Source: Verrucomicrobia bacterium LW23 (GTDB lineage: Bacteria > Verrucomicrobiota > Verrucomicrobiia > Methylacidiphilales > UBA1321). From it: DNA of 64,000 nucleotides. The notes under the pieces were generated by a model that worked only from the letters and a program-made list of their open reading frames with translations, was not told where the DNA came from and made no database searches. This document shows, piece after piece, positions 4,552 to 61,559 of this stretch; the stretch's first letter is position 1; every line of letters begins with the position of its first letter. The position numbers and the translations under genes were made by a program. Where the stretch lies: contig QAZA01000001.1 of the NCBI GenBank assembly GCA_003054695.1, positions 62,001 to 126,000 on the forward strand, in the 5' to 3' direction.

Positions 4552-4694
4552 TTCCCCCCTTCGCGCCCTTTGCGTCCTTCGCGCCCTTTGCGCGAAATAG
4601 CCCAGCGCGTGGCAGCACTTTAAGGTGCGGCACTACGAATGGCATATTTTCGCGCAAAGGGCGCGAAGGACGCAAAGGGCGCGAAGGGGGGGAA
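4552..4694. repeat. Long hairpin repeat of the AKGAKDAKGAKG type
   Basis: Left arm 4552-4599 (48 nt) is the reverse complement of right arm 4645-4694 (50 nt) except for one extra C and one extra A. They enclose a 45-nt loop. Each arm is built from alternating GGGCGCGAAGG and GACGCAAA units, so a frame through it reads AKGAKDAKGAKGG. The element fills the gap between the efp terminator and the 3' end of the pseudouridine synthase gene. Peptides of this form recur in spurious annotations from several phyla, which fits an interspersed repeat and not a gene. Confidence 0.8.
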
Positions 4695-50945: not shown

Positions 50946-51644
50946 GTAAGTAAAGACGATGTGAACTGTCGCGCAGTTAAGTCGTTGTGAGGCTGTCGAT
51001 TTTGTTGGCTTCCGCCCGAAATTTCCGCATTCTGCGTCCCCCCTTGGCGAAACTTTCCGTCCTTGGCGATACTATCTGTCGTATATCTACGGTTTTTTTT
51101 GCAGATAACATCGCCAGGGACGGAAAGTTTCGCCAAGGGGGAAGCGGGAACCACATGCCGACACGGGCTAAGCCGGACCGATTCAGATGTGAGCAGCCGA
51201 TTGGCGCAAGATCCTGGCCTCCAAGCCATTCCGAACTCCTCAACGCATGACCATGGGGATACGCCTCGTCGTTCGTAACGTCTTGGAGGCTCAAGCTTTC
51301 GCCCCACTGGACTGCTCCGAGCTGAATCGTTCCAGCCAAGCATTTTGCAGTTAGCGTGTCGCGAGTTTGCCCAGCTTCGAGAACGGCGGAGGCCGTTCCG
51401 TGACATAGCCCGGGGTTGCCAGGAGCATTCTGGATGCGAGGACTACCCCGGGTAGGCTGGTGGAGTCAGGAAACCCCACGCGAAGCGTTCTCGTGTCGAA
51501 CCCTTCGCGCTCGTTCCTTGCACGGGCCATGTTCAGAGCCGGAGTCCTTCGAAATCTGCACCGTACGGAAGCCGCGCTAACTAAAGGGCGACATCCACCA
51601 AGGGCGGACAGGTGGACGCCTGGAACTCGCCAGCACAGCAGCTG
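50946..51644. other. Intergenic region with hairpins
   Basis: 699 bp without a supported gene. It includes the 32-bp-arm hairpin 51039-51141, a perfect GAACGGC/GCCGTTC stem at 51381-51398 and a CCCGGGGT/ACCCCGGG pair at 51409-51452. The frames here (for example 50930-51406) show no conserved protein features. It reads as accumulated repeat DNA. Confidence 0.5.
51039..51141. repeat. Long hairpin repeat with TTGGCGAAACTTTCCG arms
   Basis: Left arm 51039-51070 and right arm 51110-51141 match as reverse complements at 31 of 32 positions, with a 39-nt loop. Each arm itself contains TTGGCGA twice. It has the same style as the hairpins at 4552-4694 and 56066-56131 but an unrelated sequence. Confidence 0.85.
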
Positions 51645-52160: not shown

Positions 52161-52576
52161 ATAAAGAGGGGAGGTGATGGGCGCCGGGGTGTGGAAAGCA
52201 GCAGGCGCGCCGCGTCGTCGGCACAGAGGATAGGAAGAAAGCGTTGCGGTTGGCAAACTTATTTCACCGCGATTTATCTTGTTTGTGCACAAAGATTTAG
52301 CGCGGTTATTCCCTATGTCGCGACAGCCTCGCGAGCCTGGAAGCGGTAGCCCGTGTGGTACGCATCACCACAGCGCGGCGGCGTATTGTTTGGACGAGCG
52401 GGCCGCGCAAGCTTGCAGCGGGGCAGCGAGGCATGCCCCCCGGGTGCCAGCCGTCCGCCCGCCAACGCTGATACAATGCGATCGGTGAACCTCGAAAAGG
52501 TTCCATCGTCTAGCCCAACCCAGCCCAGGGCTCTCCGAGTACAGGTAGGGAACCCTCGGTAAGGACTTCAACCGCT
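52161..52576. other. Intergenic gap with a palindrome and a repeat fragment
   Basis: 416 bp between the FecR protein start and the GH78 stop. A perfect TTTGTGCACAAA palindrome lies at 52282-52293, about 120 bp upstream of the FecR start. GAACCTCGAAAAGGTTC (52487-52503) followed by CTAGCCCA and CCCAGGG is a fragment of the large repeat at 59706-59927. Confidence 0.5.
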
Positions 52577-55036
52577 CTACTGACTCCGAAAGCGTGTTTC
52601 CCCTGCCCCCAGCGCAGTGGGCGCGGGGGAGGTGGGGAGCCAAAGCTCGCCGGTGACGCCCGCGGGCAGGCGGATGAAGCCTTCAAAGCGATCGCCTTCG
52701 GTGCTCAGTTCGAGGAGAATCTCGCCGTCCGGGTGGGGTAGCGCTACTTCCACGTGCGGCATCGGCAGCGGCGCGGGGCGGAACTCTACCGTGGCGAAGC
52801 CGGGCGAGCCCGGACGCAGGCCCAGCAGCGAGCGCACAAGATGATAATGCGGGTGCGAGCTCCAGCCGTGGCAGTCCGAGCGCGTCGGCTCCGGTTGCTC
52901 CGGCACTGTCAGCATGCCGTTGGCCGTGTAGTCCAGCCACGGCTGAATCCGTTGCCAGATGGCATCACGAAAGCCGCCGGCCGTCGCCAGCGCCTCCAGC
53001 ACGTAGTGGCAGAAGGACACGGTGGCCGGCGTCAGCTTTCGTTCCGCTTCCGCACCGGCCCTGGCCCGTGCGCCTGCGTCCGCCAGCGCGGCGGCCAGCC
53101 GGGCGGCGCGGCCTGGCGGTAAGCCGCCGGCCAGCAGGGCGGCAGCCTGCGTATGCTCGGAGAAGAGGGTGCGCTCTGTGGTGTCGGAGTACAGGCCGCG
53201 TTGTTCGTCCCAAAACACCTCGGCCGCGGCGACAAGCTCGGTTGCCCGGCGCAGCCAGCGCGCGGCGGGTTCGGGCTCGCCGGCGTACTGCTCCATCTGC
53301 GCGGCGCGGCGCAGGGTCCAGGCCAAAATCCAGTGAAACAGCGCGCTTGCGCCCTCGGGACCGGTGGGGGGCTCGCCTCCATTCCAGCCCCGCACCCAGT
53401 CCGCAAAGCGCCAGCCAAACGGCGCGCGGGCCAGGCCGTCGTTGGGCCCCAGCTCGGCCAGCCAGTAGTCGAGGATGGCGCGCATGCCCGGCACGATGGC
53501 GGCGACAAACGCCCGGTCGCGCCGCCACATCATGTAGTCATGCGCAATGCCAATCCAGTGCAGGGAGTAGAGCGGCAGCACCACCGAGTTGCGGGAGGGC
53601 CACTGCGCGCGGATCAGGCCGCACGGCAGCCGCGATGCGTCAAAATCGGCCAGCGCCTTGCGCACCAGGCGCGCGTCCGGCGACATGGTGTAGAGAGCCA
53701 GCGCCACCTGCGGAACATCACCAATCCACGACATCTGCTCGTAAAACGGCCCGTCGATAATCGCATCGTGCGATGACGCGAGCACCGTTTTGCGGCACGC
53801 CGCCAGCACGGCGTTCACCTGGGGAAGCCTTGTCGCCACCCGGCCGGTAACGGGCAGGGGATACTCTGCGCTGTTTAGCTCAAGGCTCTCCAGCACAAGC
53901 TCTTGCGACTGCGTTGCGACACAGATCTCCACATAGCGGCCGGTGCGGATAAACGGGGGCCGGAAAGCGCAACCCTTGCTGCCGTCCGGCTCAAAGCGAT
54001 CGCCCACGCCCACAAACCACTTGCCCTGCACGGCCGCGCGGTCCCCTTTGTGCGGAGACTCCGCGCCCTCAAACAGGGACTCCGCAAAGTGGATGCGCAC
54101 CGAAGCGCCGGCGCCCGCCGAGACGGCCAGCTCAGGCAGCACGCACGCGTAGTCGCGCAGATCCACAATAACGCGCCGCGCCGTGTGGGGCGGCACGGTA
54201 AGCGGGGAGTCCCCCGCCAGCCAGCGCTGCCATGCCGCATGCTCGGCCGGCGCGTCGTTCGCGGAATCCACCGGGCCCCTGGTGACCGCGGAGACATGCC
54301 GCACCCAACCGCCCGCGTGGGGCGTCTCCGCCGCGACAGGCAGCGTGGCCGGCGTCAGCAAATGCATGCGCGGGTGCCGGGTGCGGATGCCTGCGCTGGA
54401 GCCGGGATGCAGCGCCACCGCCGCCGTCCACTCGCCCTCGTCGCCCGGCGCGCCGGCGTTGTGTGCACCGCCCCGCAGCACGGTATTCCAGCCCACGCTG
54501 AAGAACTCGCCCGGAAACGGCTTCTCGTAGCCCAGCGGCGGGAGAACGCGCGCCTGCCATGGCGCCTTGCCGGTATCGAGGGCGATGCTTTCGTTTCGCT
54601 CGCCGGTCCCGGCTCCATTCACGGTTTCGGCAGCCAGCAAAAAGCCGGGCTGCAGGCTCAGCTGCGAGCGCAGGCCCAGCACGCCGTGCGCCTGCACAAC
54701 AGCGGTCACCACGTGGCGCCCGGGGCTCGCGCTCCAGTCGTAGGAGTCAAAGTACCAGCGCTCCAGAGTGCCGCGCTCGCTCCCCCAGCCCGCGCGGGCG
54801 CCGTCGATATAGAGCTCGTACCGTTCATCGCCCGCCACGTGCAGCCGCACCTCCGTCGCCGCAGCGATCTCCACCACGCAGCGGAAGGCAATCCGGCACG
54901 GCGCCGCCGGCTGCGATGCATGGGTAATCCACGATGCGCGCCAGAAGCCCCGCTCGATCCAGCCGCGCTCACGCTCCGCCTCCAGAAACGGAAGCTCCTT
55001 AAGGATAACGCGTTGCACGGGGGCGGATGGACTCAT
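52577..55036 (-). CDS. Alpha-L-rhamnosidase-like glycoside hydrolase (GH78-type)
   Basis: An 819-residue protein. An N-terminal jelly-roll region (ERGFWRASWIT, then EVRLHVAGDERYELYIDGAR) is followed by a six-hairpin (alpha/alpha)6 catalytic barrel. Its markers are IIDGPFYEQMSWIGDVPQVA, WIGIAHDYMMWRRDRAFVAA and SFCHYVLEALATAGGFRDAI, with GWSSHPHYHLV near the C-terminus. GH78 enzymes remove terminal alpha-L-rhamnose from plant or bacterial glycans. I see the expected acidic residue in DGPFYEQ but cannot confirm the general acid. No signal peptide is seen. The Met at 55036 is preferred to 55156 because the jelly-roll starts soon after. Confidence 0.8.
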   Translation of the reverse strand: MSPSAPVQRVILKELPFLEAERERGWIERGFWRASWITHASQPAAPCRIAFRCVVEIAAATEVRLHVAGDERYELYIDGARAGWGSERGTLERWYFDSYDWSASPGRHVVTAVVQAHGVLGLRSQLSLQPGFLLAAETVNGAGTGERNESIALDTGKAPWQARVLPPLGYEKPFPGEFFSVGWNTVLRGGAHNAGAPGDEGEWTAAVALHPGSSAGIRTRHPRMHLLTPATLPVAAETPHAGGWVRHVSAVTRGPVDSANDAPAEHAAWQRWLAGDSPLTVPPHTARRVIVDLRDYACVLPELAVSAGAGASVRIHFAESLFEGAESPHKGDRAAVQGKWFVGVGDRFEPDGSKGCAFRPPFIRTGRYVEICVATQSQELVLESLELNSAEYPLPVTGRVATRLPQVNAVLAACRKTVLASSHDAIIDGPFYEQMSWIGDVPQVALALYTMSPDARLVRKALADFDASRLPCGLIRAQWPSRNSVVLPLYSLHWIGIAHDYMMWRRDRAFVAAIVPGMRAILDYWLAELGPNDGLARAPFGWRFADWVRGWNGGEPPTGPEGASALFHWILAWTLRRAAQMEQYAGEPEPAARWLRRATELVAAAEVFWDEQRGLYSDTTERTLFSEHTQAAALLAGGLPPGRAARLAAALADAGARARAGAEAERKLTPATVSFCHYVLEALATAGGFRDAIWQRIQPWLDYTANGMLTVPEQPEPTRSDCHGWSSHPHYHLVRSLLGLRPGSPGFATVEFRPAPLPMPHVEVALPHPDGEILLELSTEGDRFEGFIRLPAGVTGELWLPTSPAPTALGAGETRFRSQ

Positions 55037-55867: not shown

Positions 55868-56253
55868 ACGGGATTCGGCCGGGGAGCATCTCGCCATTGG
55901 ATGGGCGGAAGGGACGGAAAAGCGGGACTGTGACCAGCCACTAATCGTCCTGCAAAGGATCAGAGGTTAAGCGCGGCGGGTTAATGAGTGGGTGGACAGT
56001 CAAATAAATGGAGGCTTTGAGGCTCGCGACATTCGACTACCCAGGAGACCACTCCCTCTCTGCGTAATCCGTGTTTTCCGTGGTTAACAACTCCCCTGTG
56101 AACTGAAAGTTAACCACGGATAACACGGATTGCACGGAGGGGGGCGGCGAGATCCTGTCGTGCGATTCGAGCTCGAATGTCGACAGTGCAAGGCATCCAT
56201 CCTCACACAAATGCTCGAACAACATGAAAAACACAAACCTCAAGGAGATCGAT
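55868..56253. other. Intergenic gap with hairpin repeat
   Basis: 386 bp between TetR and the dehydrogenase. It holds the hairpin at 56066-56131 and dispersed repeat motif copy 2 (GTCGTGCGATTC at 56157-56168, TCGAATGTCGACAG at 56173-56186). No gene is supported. Confidence 0.5.
56066..56131. repeat. Hairpin repeat of the CCACGGATAACACGGATT type
   Basis: Left arm 56066-56088 and right arm 56109-56131 match as reverse complements at 22 of 23 positions with a 20-nt loop. The frame through it reads SVLSVVNF and LLTTENTDYAE, a peptide seen in spurious annotations of many genomes. Confidence 0.8.
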
Positions 56254-59468: not shown

Positions 59469-59982
59469 GCGGTAGTTTTACCAGCATAACCCGGAACCGC
59501 CGTCTGTCACTAGCAGGACACGCCAATCGACTTGCAAAAGGCGCCAAACTTCACCGCAACCTCCGAAGCGCCACAGGCGCGAATGCCTGTGGCCCAGGGC
59601 GTGGGCCCTGGAAAGAGTCTCGTATTGAGAACGCTCCTAGTGTTTCGGCAAGGATCTATTGGAGGATAAGGGCGGTTCAAGAAGAGATCTTCGCAAGGCT
59701 CTGACAACCTCAACGAGGTTGTATAACCTAGCCCAGGGTTCCCCGAGCGAAGCGAGAGAACCCTGGGTGAAGGCGCGAAATCGAACGACCCCAACGCGGG
59801 TCGCATCCCTTTTCGACGCCGAGGGATACAACCCGCGTTGGGGTTGGTCTGAAACTGCCGCTTACCCAGGGTTCTCTCGCTTCGCTCGGGGAACCCTGGG
59901 CTAGGTTATAGAACCTCTTCGAGGTTCTCGGAGATTCCCCGTCCATGCACGTCTGATCCTAAAATAGATCTTTGCCGATGCG
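59469..59982. other. Intergenic gap holding the composite repeat
   Basis: 514 bp between the AraC gene start and the flavoprotein stop. The first part shows GCGCCAC/GTGGCCC-type small palindromes (59565-59610); from 59706 it is the large composite repeat described separately. Frames such as YNLAQGSPSEAREPWV are read from the repeat and are not genes. Confidence 0.6.
59706..59927. repeat. Nested palindromic element with 47-bp perfect arms
   Basis: Arms 59722-59768 and 59864-59910 are exact reverse complements over 47 bp and contain AACCTAGCCCAGGG and GAGCGAAGCGAGAG. Inside, 59787-59809 pairs imperfectly with 59823-59845 (ACCCCAACGCGGGT). Outside, each end carries its own palindrome: CAACCTCAACGAGGTTG on the left, GAACCTCTTCGAGGTTC on the right. 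The whole is symmetrical at three levels. A fragment of the same element is at 52487-52530. Confidence 0.88.
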
Positions 59983-61206
59983 CTAGCACACACACTCCTT
60001 GCCGCAGCAGGAGAGATCCTCCAGCCGCATCTGGTTTGCATGATAGGTGGCGGCGACGTCGTCCGGGACAGGGAGACCGAGGCGCCGGGCTACGGACTCG
60101 GCGACGATGGCGAAGCGTTGGCGGAACTTGTAGATATAGCAGAAGATGTGGTGCTCATGTCGCACCAGGGGGCCGGCAAGAAAGAGGCCGGGCGTCAGTG
60201 TCGATTCGTCATGCTCGTTTAGCAGAATGTTGCCGTCGTCCCGGTAAGCAAAGAGATGCTTCACCGGCGCTACGCCGCCGACAAAGCCCGTTGCCAGGAT
60301 GGGCTGGTGCTCGGAGAAGAAGCTCCCCTGCACCGTACACACGGTGTAGCCGCCACGCTCCCGCTTTACCTCGGTAACGCGGTGATTCGCCAGCACGCGA
60401 AGGTTGGAGCGCTCCGCCGTGACCGCGGCCAGGCGCTCCCGTGTAAACGGGGAGAGCGACCGGCTGGGATCCTGCTCCTGCGTCGCAAGTTGCTCAGCCC
60501 CATGCAACAGCGTTACGTGAACACCCCGTCGCACCAAGTGCACCGCCGCATCCACACCGCTCTCAAACGCGCCAATGACGATGCGGTCGCGACCGGGCAG
60601 CTCCTGAAAGCTGGCAATCTGGCTGTTGTGCAGGCAGTGCGCGGCCCCCGGAAACGAATGGGTGCGCGGGTACTGGAATTCGCCCGCCGCCCAGATCACA
60701 TTGTCGGCCGTGTAGACGGAGCCATCCCTGCACGTCAGCCGGAACGTGGTGCCCGGCCCGGACGGCGTAGGCGCCCGGCCGCGCGTCCCGGCTTTCTCGG
60801 GAGCCTCGACCTGCACGATGTCGATCCCCGCTTGGACCGGGAGCTGGCACTCGATGGCGGCCTGTTGTAGGTAGTGCGCGTACTGTTTGCCGGTGGGGTG
60901 CTCTGCCCCCAGAAAGTTGGCCACCGAGGTGTGCAGCATCACCGCGTTGAGGTCCAGAATGCCAAACGGAGTGGTGTTGAAGGACGGCGTAATCAGCCGC
61001 ATCTCCTTCGGCCAGCGCAGGAAGGACGCGCCGATGCAGTGGCGGTCCACAATCAGAAACTCCCCTGCCTTGTAGTCTTGCAACGCCACTCCGAGCCCCA
61101 CGCCCGCAGCGCCTGCGCCAACAACAATGGTGTTGATGTGTGTGTGATTTACCCGGCCGGGCTGAAAACTCGCCGGCCACTTCCAGGCCATTATTGCCAT
61201 ATCCAT
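59983..61206 (-). CDS. FAD/NAD(P)-dependent monooxygenase-like flavoprotein with Cys-rich tail
   Basis: A 407-residue flavoprotein. VVGAGAAGVGLGVALQ (GxGxxG at residues 30-35) is the FAD fold, and VIGAFESGVDAAVHLVRRGV the NAD(P)-binding one. LRWPKEMRLITPSF and LATGFVGG are typical of the CzcO/FMO-like group, which oxidises N- or S-containing compounds. Uniquely, the protein ends SCCGKECVC, with four Cys within eight residues (400, 401, 405, 407). This is a possible metal- or thiol-sensing tail. It is the second gene behind the L31 gene (74 bp), so it should share the metal-responsive promoter. Confidence 0.82.
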   Translation of the reverse strand: MDMAIMAWKWPASFQPGRVNHTHINTIVVGAGAAGVGLGVALQDYKAGEFLIVDRHCIGASFLRWPKEMRLITPSFNTTPFGILDLNAVMLHTSVANFLGAEHPTGKQYAHYLQQAAIECQLPVQAGIDIVQVEAPEKAGTRGRAPTPSGPGTTFRLTCRDGSVYTADNVIWAAGEFQYPRTHSFPGAAHCLHNSQIASFQELPGRDRIVIGAFESGVDAAVHLVRRGVHVTLLHGAEQLATQEQDPSRSLSPFTRERLAAVTAERSNLRVLANHRVTEVKRERGGYTVCTVQGSFFSEHQPILATGFVGGVAPVKHLFAYRDDGNILLNEHDESTLTPGLFLAGPLVRHEHHIFCYIYKFRQRFAIVAESVARRLGLPVPDDVAATYHANQMRLEDLSCCGKECVC

Positions 61207-61280
61207 CTCCTCAGCAAAATCCGTGCTTTAAATACAAGGGGGCCACGGCATTTCATGTCTACACTCGTAGTGAAACCTCT

Positions 61281-61559
61281 CTACCCGGCGTTAAGTTTCT
61301 GGCGCCGGGAGAGGGGGCTCGTCGAGCCGTAGCGTTTGGCAAACTTGTCGATGCGACCCTCTGTGTCCACAAACGACTTTTGGCCGGTGAAGAACGGATG
61401 CGAGGCCGACGAGATGCCGAGGAAAACGACGAAGTGCACAACGCCGTCGATCACCTCGGTCTGATCGGATGTCATGGTGGAGCGGGTGACGAAGCGGGCT
61501 CCGTTGGACACGTCCACAAACACGACGGGGTTAAGGGTGGGGTGAGTATTGGGTTTCAT
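61281..61559 (-). CDS. rpmE2: Ribosomal protein L31, type B (zinc-independent)
   Basis: A 92-residue ribosomal protein. MKPNTHPTLNPVVFVDVSNG, SSASHPFFTGQKSFVDTEGR and DKFAKRYG are the L31 motifs. The four Cys of the zinc-binding type A form are absent, which defines the type B paralogue. In many bacteria this paralogue is repressed by Zur and replaces the zinc-binding form when zinc is scarce, releasing zinc. Two palindromes upstream support such control here. It is slightly longer than the usual roughly 80-90 residues because of the LSRRQKLNAG tail. Confidence 0.92.
   Translation of the reverse strand: MKPNTHPTLNPVVFVDVSNGARFVTRSTMTSDQTEVIDGVVHFVVFLGISSASHPFFTGQKSFVDTEGRIDKFAKRYGSTSPLSRRQKLNAG

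Follow-up and report, generated by a model that had tools for sequence, protein, structure and literature searches.

The palindrome in the window (the whole 64,000-nucleotide stretch of Verrucomicrobia bacterium LW23 DNA that was analysed) is very probably a pair of nested non-autonomous elements, a REPIN-like inner element lying within an IS630-type MITE, each with its own proposed mechanism of spread (Table 1). We found 47-bp exact arms at 59722-59768 and 59864-59910, as in the original prediction; no perfect inverted repeat with arms within 400 bp of each other exceeded 15 bp in 20 shuffles of the window that preserved its dinucleotides. The imperfect inner repeat was likewise present (28 nt, 86% identity, with a 14-bp perfect core at 59788-59801/59831-59844), as was the small palindrome at each outer edge (ACAACCTCAACGAGGTTGT on the left and AGAACCTCTTCGAGGTTCT on the right). 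The symmetry had been described as three-level; the palindromes are indeed nested, but each 47-bp arm is a hairpin in itself (CCCAGGGTTC...GAACCCTGGG), and therefore there are more than three levels.

The predicted size of 222 bp proved too small. Flank alignment showed that the closest copies have a longer unit in common, with homology extending to the 344-bp unit of Table 1, whose ends form a second set of inverted repeats. The degraded fragment placed at 52487-52530 is real, but it is longer (52484 to about 52579) and terminates in a different inverted repeat, ...TTCAACCGCTCTA.

Table 1. Features of the nested elements and related sequences, in window coordinates.
Feature	Position	Strand	Basis or remark
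Relic of an older copy: degraded P1, REP and TIR-B-like end	52484-52579	+	Sequence
Remnant of a second MITE/REPIN family (TIR-B; REP CCCAGGGCG..GGGCCCTGG)	59562-59637	-	344-bp element inserted at the remnant's end
Left TA target-site duplication, CTAG context	59638-59639	.	
Complete 344-bp element, assigned as IS630-type MITE, 'type A'	59640-59983	+	Ten copies of equal length with the same termini and TA or TA-like flanks
Left terminal inverted repeat TIR-A	59640-59667	+	
Inner REPIN-like double-REP element (TCYGA...TCRGA)	59700-59932	+	Also in copies without TIR-A; hairpin order as around Y1 genes
P1 outer small hairpin, left (ACAACCTC-AAC-GAGGTTGT)	59704-59722	+	Second pair covaries
REP hairpin, left; AG foot 59730-59731	59732-59767	+	
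P3 inner small hairpin, left (CGACCC-CAACGC-GGGTCG)	59786-59803	+	Sequence; position matches P3 in transposase-bearing relatives
P3 inner small hairpin, right (CAACCC-GCGTTG-GGGTTG)	59829-59846	+	Sequence; position matches P3 in transposase-bearing relatives
REP hairpin, right; AG foot 59901-59902	59865-59900	-	
P1 outer small hairpin, right	59910-59928	-	
Right terminal inverted repeat TIR-A	59956-59983	-	
Right TA target-site duplication	59984-59985	.	
Solitary TIR-B end, 3 mismatches	61257-61283	-	

Three further hairpins were seen in the window. At 4554-4691, an inverted repeat that is perfect over 44 bp (CCCCCCTTCGCGCCCTTTGCGTCC...) contains direct repeats; it belongs to a different hairpin family. 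A 40-nt inverted repeat lies at 51039-51141 (CCCCCTTGGCGAAACTTTCCGTCC...), and similar sequence occurs beside other copies of the element in the genome (e.g. L005, L011, L042 and L052). The third, a 35-nt inverted repeat with CCACGGATAACACGGATTGCACGGAGG at 56054-56143, is another hairpin in the style of a dispersed repeat.

The TIR-A repeats of the outer unit read GTGYATCGGCAARGATCTATTTTAGGAT, and insertion is at TA within CTAG. Duplication of TA in CTAG is the known behaviour of IS630. Both the duplication and the CTAG preference were found for the outer element: ten copies run from GTG to CAC with a length of exactly 344 bp, and mostly have TA on both sides in a CTAG context. Short forms of 138, 157, 211, 227 and 315 bp have ends identical to those of the 344-bp form. 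One 315-bp copy is inserted in the CTAG of another copy's core and left exactly one extra TA; its flanks rejoined with one TA give CTATAACCTAGCCCAGGG, as in intact copies. The 138-bp forms were rejected as the ancestral MITE, since their single P1 is a hybrid of the left and right P1, which fits a deletion between the two.

The same genome has IS630-type genes (PF13358), with ends of the CTAGTG and CTAGAG types. The best match to TIR-A was a complete IS630 element with ends CTAGTGCTACGTCCA... (21/33 identical; L081 resembles TIR-A at 21/33 positions), and TIR-A itself was not found at any IS630 gene of the genome. L081 (C32:95-1275) is a full-length IS630 with a run of N inside and ends CTAGTGCTACGTCCAKCTTATA, and is the closest candidate relative of the parent of the MITE. 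Single TIR ends on three contigs (C10, C30 and C14) were rejected as autonomous copies, each being a short or broken form. Three IS630 ends have the sequence TAGAGCGGYTTCAATACGCTTGTATAC (TIR-B), and TIR-B matches the ends of the IS630 fragments L117-L119. Hence, judged by its TA duplication in CTAG and the IS630 genes and ends of this genome, the outer unit is probably an IS630-type MITE, the exact parent of which was not found.

The minus-strand gene at 59983-61206 (flavin-monooxygenase-like) has a TAG stop codon that consists of the right TA duplication and the first TIR base (G), and several older copies (L013, L014 and L026) likewise begin at a gene's stop codon. Since the window MITE and these older copies sit at stops, a CTAG target at a TAG stop appears to be a place where insertion does no harm.

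Within the MITE are two inverted REP palindromes with a spacer, their AG feet pointing outward, and the six hairpins of this inner element have the order P1-REP-P3...P3-REP-P1. We found that two REP families of the genome bracket a Y1_Tnp gene (C25:144734-145183 and C50:245243-245689), each in the order P1-REP-P3-gene-P3-REP-P1, with the REPs inverted, P1 outside and P3 inside. The order is identical around such genes in two genomes (G010 and G008) of another genus (g2) of the family. Gene-less units keep the P1-REP-P3 order, with a short spacer replacing the gene, as in the window element. The C25 and C50 genes are the only two of the type that were found in the genome; the REP family of the window was not found to bracket any such gene there, nor was a transposase gene found inside any copy of the window core. 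Hence, because REPs bracket a gene in the C25 and C50 families and not in the window family, we call the window element REPIN-like and gene-less, short of a full REPIN/RAYT pair. IS200 subclass-1.1-like genes (C3/C31) were considered as its partner and rejected, their flanks being without AG-foot hairpins.

The bracketed proteins are about 150 aa long, match Pfam Y1_Tnp (E 3e-25) and align with ISDra2 TnpA in the DHVH (HUH) and catalytic-tyrosine regions; their motifs are DH[VI]H, WQ and YIxNQExHH. The motifs of TnpA_Y1 subclass 1.2 have been given, with REP scored as 'no' for this subclass (Quentin et al. 2018, PMC6006769). We found these motifs (DH[IV]H, WQ and Y---Q--HH, about 148 aa, class-1 core) in the bracketed proteins, and YxxxQxxHH is present in 29/30 and 29/30 homologues. 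The bracketed genes therefore carry the signature of subclass 1.2, a placement made by motifs only.

A homologue is present in 63 of the 288 genomes of the phylum. Far control regions are more often coding than near flanks, so that near/far contrasts may be inflated in all three of the following sets: in other genomes of the phylum, 27/29 inspected loci have, no more than 300 bp from the gene, a hairpin with an AG foot and a perfect 7-bp stem, compared with 1/21 at 1000-1300 bp; in the class of Granulicella, which is an independent set and the sole out-of-sample test, as the AGCC..GG hairpin pattern was picked after viewing the loci of the phylum, an AG-footed hairpin is found near the gene in 16/30 and far from it in 1/26; and in Cyanobacteria, any GC-rich hairpin is near the gene at 17/30 loci and far from it at 2/28. 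The Granulicella-class hairpins are in one inverted orientation in 29 of 30 cases (29:1), and some of those in Cyanobacteria are repeated identically on both sides of the gene (e.g. TTAG-CCTCAGAATTCATTCTGAGG in L316). By sequence, genes of subclass 1.2 type, surveyed as REP-less, thus appear to be bracketed by REP-type hairpins in this phylum, the Granulicella class and Cyanobacteria.

In this genome there are three REP families with an outer stem common to all; the foot is CTAG in the window family, GTAG in family c and ATAG/AAAG in family b, so that GTAG/GTGG is not the rule. The pattern AGCCCAGGG...CCCTGGGT occurs without mismatch 57 times in this genome and 25-30 times in each of three others of the order, often as inverted pairs about 125-200 bp apart; the reversed control pattern had no match in the order. 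A contig scan for CCCAGGGTTC..GAACCCTGGG returned real arrays, in the PRO9 MAG, mixed with lone hairpins, the latter in Nodosilinea, Cyanobium, Granulicella (ribosomal-gene region) and Treponema. The PRO9 MAG, labelled Deltaproteobacteria (L067, L069, L072, L074, L079 and L257), has like-styled arrays (ACGCC..GGCGT, the CCCAGGGTTC hairpin and AAACCCTGAAAGGGTTT), which end in ATTAGT/ACTAAT; homologous Y1 genes are present in it, one (L257) with AG-foot hairpins.

In older diverged copies, the common part is the core plus about 25 bp, and the ends are TIR-B-like; these ends are significant in L013, L014 and L028 (p 0.015-0.03) and lost in other older copies. TIR-B also bears a second core, with P1 GAAGCGCC..GGCGC and REP CCCAGGGCGTAAGCCCTGGG. 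The core and the TIR are therefore modules in their own right. Beyond P1, significant outer inverted repeats occur in all ten type-A copies, in L125 (TIR-B), and in both genomes of the sister genus, G008 (L177 and L199: TAGAGCATTTT...) and G010 (L170-L172: other sequences); most gene-bearing copies, and REP family c, showed none. Hence, given its occurrence with these different repeats, the nesting of a REPIN in a MITE seems recurrent.

These results bear on the reading that there is a single IS630-type MITE, in which the internal palindromes arose by inverted duplication of one half, with no link to Y1 transposases. All 344 bp form a single, roughly symmetrical unit that moves as a whole, and MITEs are often near-palindromic, but we consider this reading improbable, as the core is also found with TIR-B and very diverged flanks, TIR-B bears another REP family, and Y1 genes have the P1-REP-P3 order around them with no outer TIR.

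A search with the 222 bp as query found 82 matches in the organism's own assembly (6.6 Mb, 56 contigs), with both strands of the palindrome counted; they comprise about 20 near-full-length sites and many fragments. L015 equals L014 over all 3220 bases and was counted once. The start of contig C10 corresponds to C9:145853-149072 (L014/L015), with 3220 identical bases in opposite orientation, which is an assembly overlap or a large duplication. Among 59 other genomes of the order, none had a full copy, and one had a weak 74% match to part of the 222 bp. The view that the palindrome is a dispersed element was thus upheld: the copies are many rather than single, have common termini and duplicate TA at the target, and a transposase gene is present in relatives of the inner part. 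The copies are intergenic, 12 of 20 between tandem genes; a preference for convergent genes was dropped, as just 6/20 copies lie between these.

Acido-Lenti-1 (RF01687) has been described as a candidate non-coding RNA of Acidobacteria and Lentisphaerae (Weinberg et al. 2010, PMC2864571). We found that its model consists of the REP hairpin, linker and P1 hairpin of a sister family in this genome, with 54 bits for the C25 REP+P1 unit (gathering score 37). The match at 59567-59612, in the remnant beside the element, is weak (28.8 bits against 37), and the REPIN of the window itself had no match to the model. RF01687 matches within 200 bp of Y1 genes face outward in 20/21 cases (10 upstream on the minus strand and 10 downstream on the plus strand). 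In the 288 genomes of the phylum, RF01687 is present in 55/63 with the gene and in 27/225 others (both 55, gene only 8, RNA only 27, neither 198; Fisher p 9e-30, with genomes that are not independent). Rfam microRNA matches on the element (MIR820 and MIR8788) were discarded; they are below their gathering scores and reflect just a long hairpin.

The reading that the host retains a functional RNA or bidirectional transcription terminator here, with dispersal secondary, would suit the very stable predicted fold (-184.6 kcal/mol with RNA parameters), the intergenic position of the copies, some between convergent genes, and the listing of a related unit as sRNA in Rfam. It is nevertheless quite unlikely, more so than a single MITE: the copies adjoin unrelated genes and are mostly in tandem rather than convergent settings, whole elements have TIRs and TA duplications, and the units occur as inverted pairs round a transposase gene, as the outward-facing Acido-Lenti-1 matches illustrate.

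The hairpins of the inner element are conserved by compensatory change. Among 20 distinct REPs of related genomes, the REP inner stem has four variable pairs, each altered on both sides; 97.7% of cells are paired, and the covariation score was reached by 0/500 shuffles. Of the 36 P1 hairpins in 18 copies of the window family, 21 have CG and 15 have GC as the second pair, and none is mispaired there. Several older copies have left and right REP loops that differ, each with its own stem kept. Hence, local hairpins persist, not long arm-to-arm pairing.

The idea that gene conversion or hairpin-templated repair actively holds the arms identical fits the window copy, whose arms agree perfectly over 47 bp, but is scarcely credible and is refuted for this family, in which 12 arm substitutions in ten full-length copies include none that is mirrored, and in which the loops have diverged between left and right in several older copies. 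Since no substitution was mirrored, chance survival in a fairly young copy is a likelier explanation for the perfect arms seen in the window than maintenance. The recent formation that had been suggested is only faintly indicated, as copies differ from the consensus at 11-20 of 344 positions.

For the two nested elements, we propose the following mechanism. The inner unit would represent, without the gene, a type of element that in other places has the Y1/HUH transposase of about 150 aa between its P3 hairpins. When the DNA is single-stranded (e.g. as lagging-strand template at replication), the P1, REP and P3 hairpins would fold, and the transposase would recognise the AG-footed REP and nick it by its tyrosine, as IS200/IS605 TnpA and TnpA_REP do, and then copy or move the unit. 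Since the assembly is without a cognate transposase gene for the window REP family, the inner element is presumably carried passively here. In the order of nesting we favour, the REPIN was captured by the MITE; an IS630-type DDE transposase would then cut the TIRs in trans and insert the unit at TA within CTAG, and this trans-mobilisation would have amplified the 344-bp unit.

IS630-associated MITEs (e.g. RUP, Correia-type and Nezha elements) are short and gene-less, with TIRs and TA duplication in CTAG. The window element is like them, but its middle part is a complete REPIN. REPINs/BIMEs with TnpA_REP (RAYT) of E. coli and Pseudomonas (PMC3116915, PMC2817692, PMC6006769) are similar to the inner element in the inverted REP pair about 125-200 bp apart, the short foot 5' of each hairpin, the bracketing of the gene-bearing copy by like hairpins, and the several families per genome, each with its own transposase. 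In contrast, the transposase here is of class 1 (Y...Q..HH) whereas theirs has Y..NP, the foot is NNAG (CTAG, ATAG, GTAG, TCAG) rather than strictly GT[AG]G, and the extra hairpins P1 and P3 frame each REP.

The genes resemble TnpA_Y1 subclass 1.2 in DH[VI]H, WQ, YIxNQxxHH, a length of about 150 aa and low copy number, but the survey has REP 'no' for this subclass and places it mainly in Cyanobacteria and Bacteroidetes (PMC6006769), whereas here REP-type hairpins bracket the genes. TIRtrons/TIRYT (Di Nocera et al. 2013, PMC3733652) also combine Y1 genes and inverted repeats with dispersed gene-less copies, some fused to unrelated stem-loops; they differ in being mostly of subclass 2.1 with GGGGWSAS repeats, and no surrounding IS630 MITE was reported for them. 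Acido-Lenti-1 stands without a transposase link in the text of its source that describes the motif (PMC2864571), whereas here the unit is linked to Y1 genes.

More broadly, and with confidence evenly divided, we propose that subclass 1.2 Y1 transposases of several phyla run their own P1-REP-P3 REP/REPIN system, that Acido-Lenti-1 is a terminal DNA hairpin unit of it, and that gene-less REPINs lodge repeatedly in DDE-type MITEs (with TIR-A, TIR-B or, in the sister genus, other repeats) and so gain a second, independent route of spread. A transposase group reported to be without REPs would thereby gain a clear candidate DNA partner, and the results suggest that the Acido-Lenti-1 'sRNA' of Rfam be re-read as the end of a mobile element. 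The window would hold a parasite of single-stranded DNA (HUH) nested in one of double-stranded DNA (DDE), which offers a concrete setting for the question of how orphan REPINs endure once their transposase has been lost.
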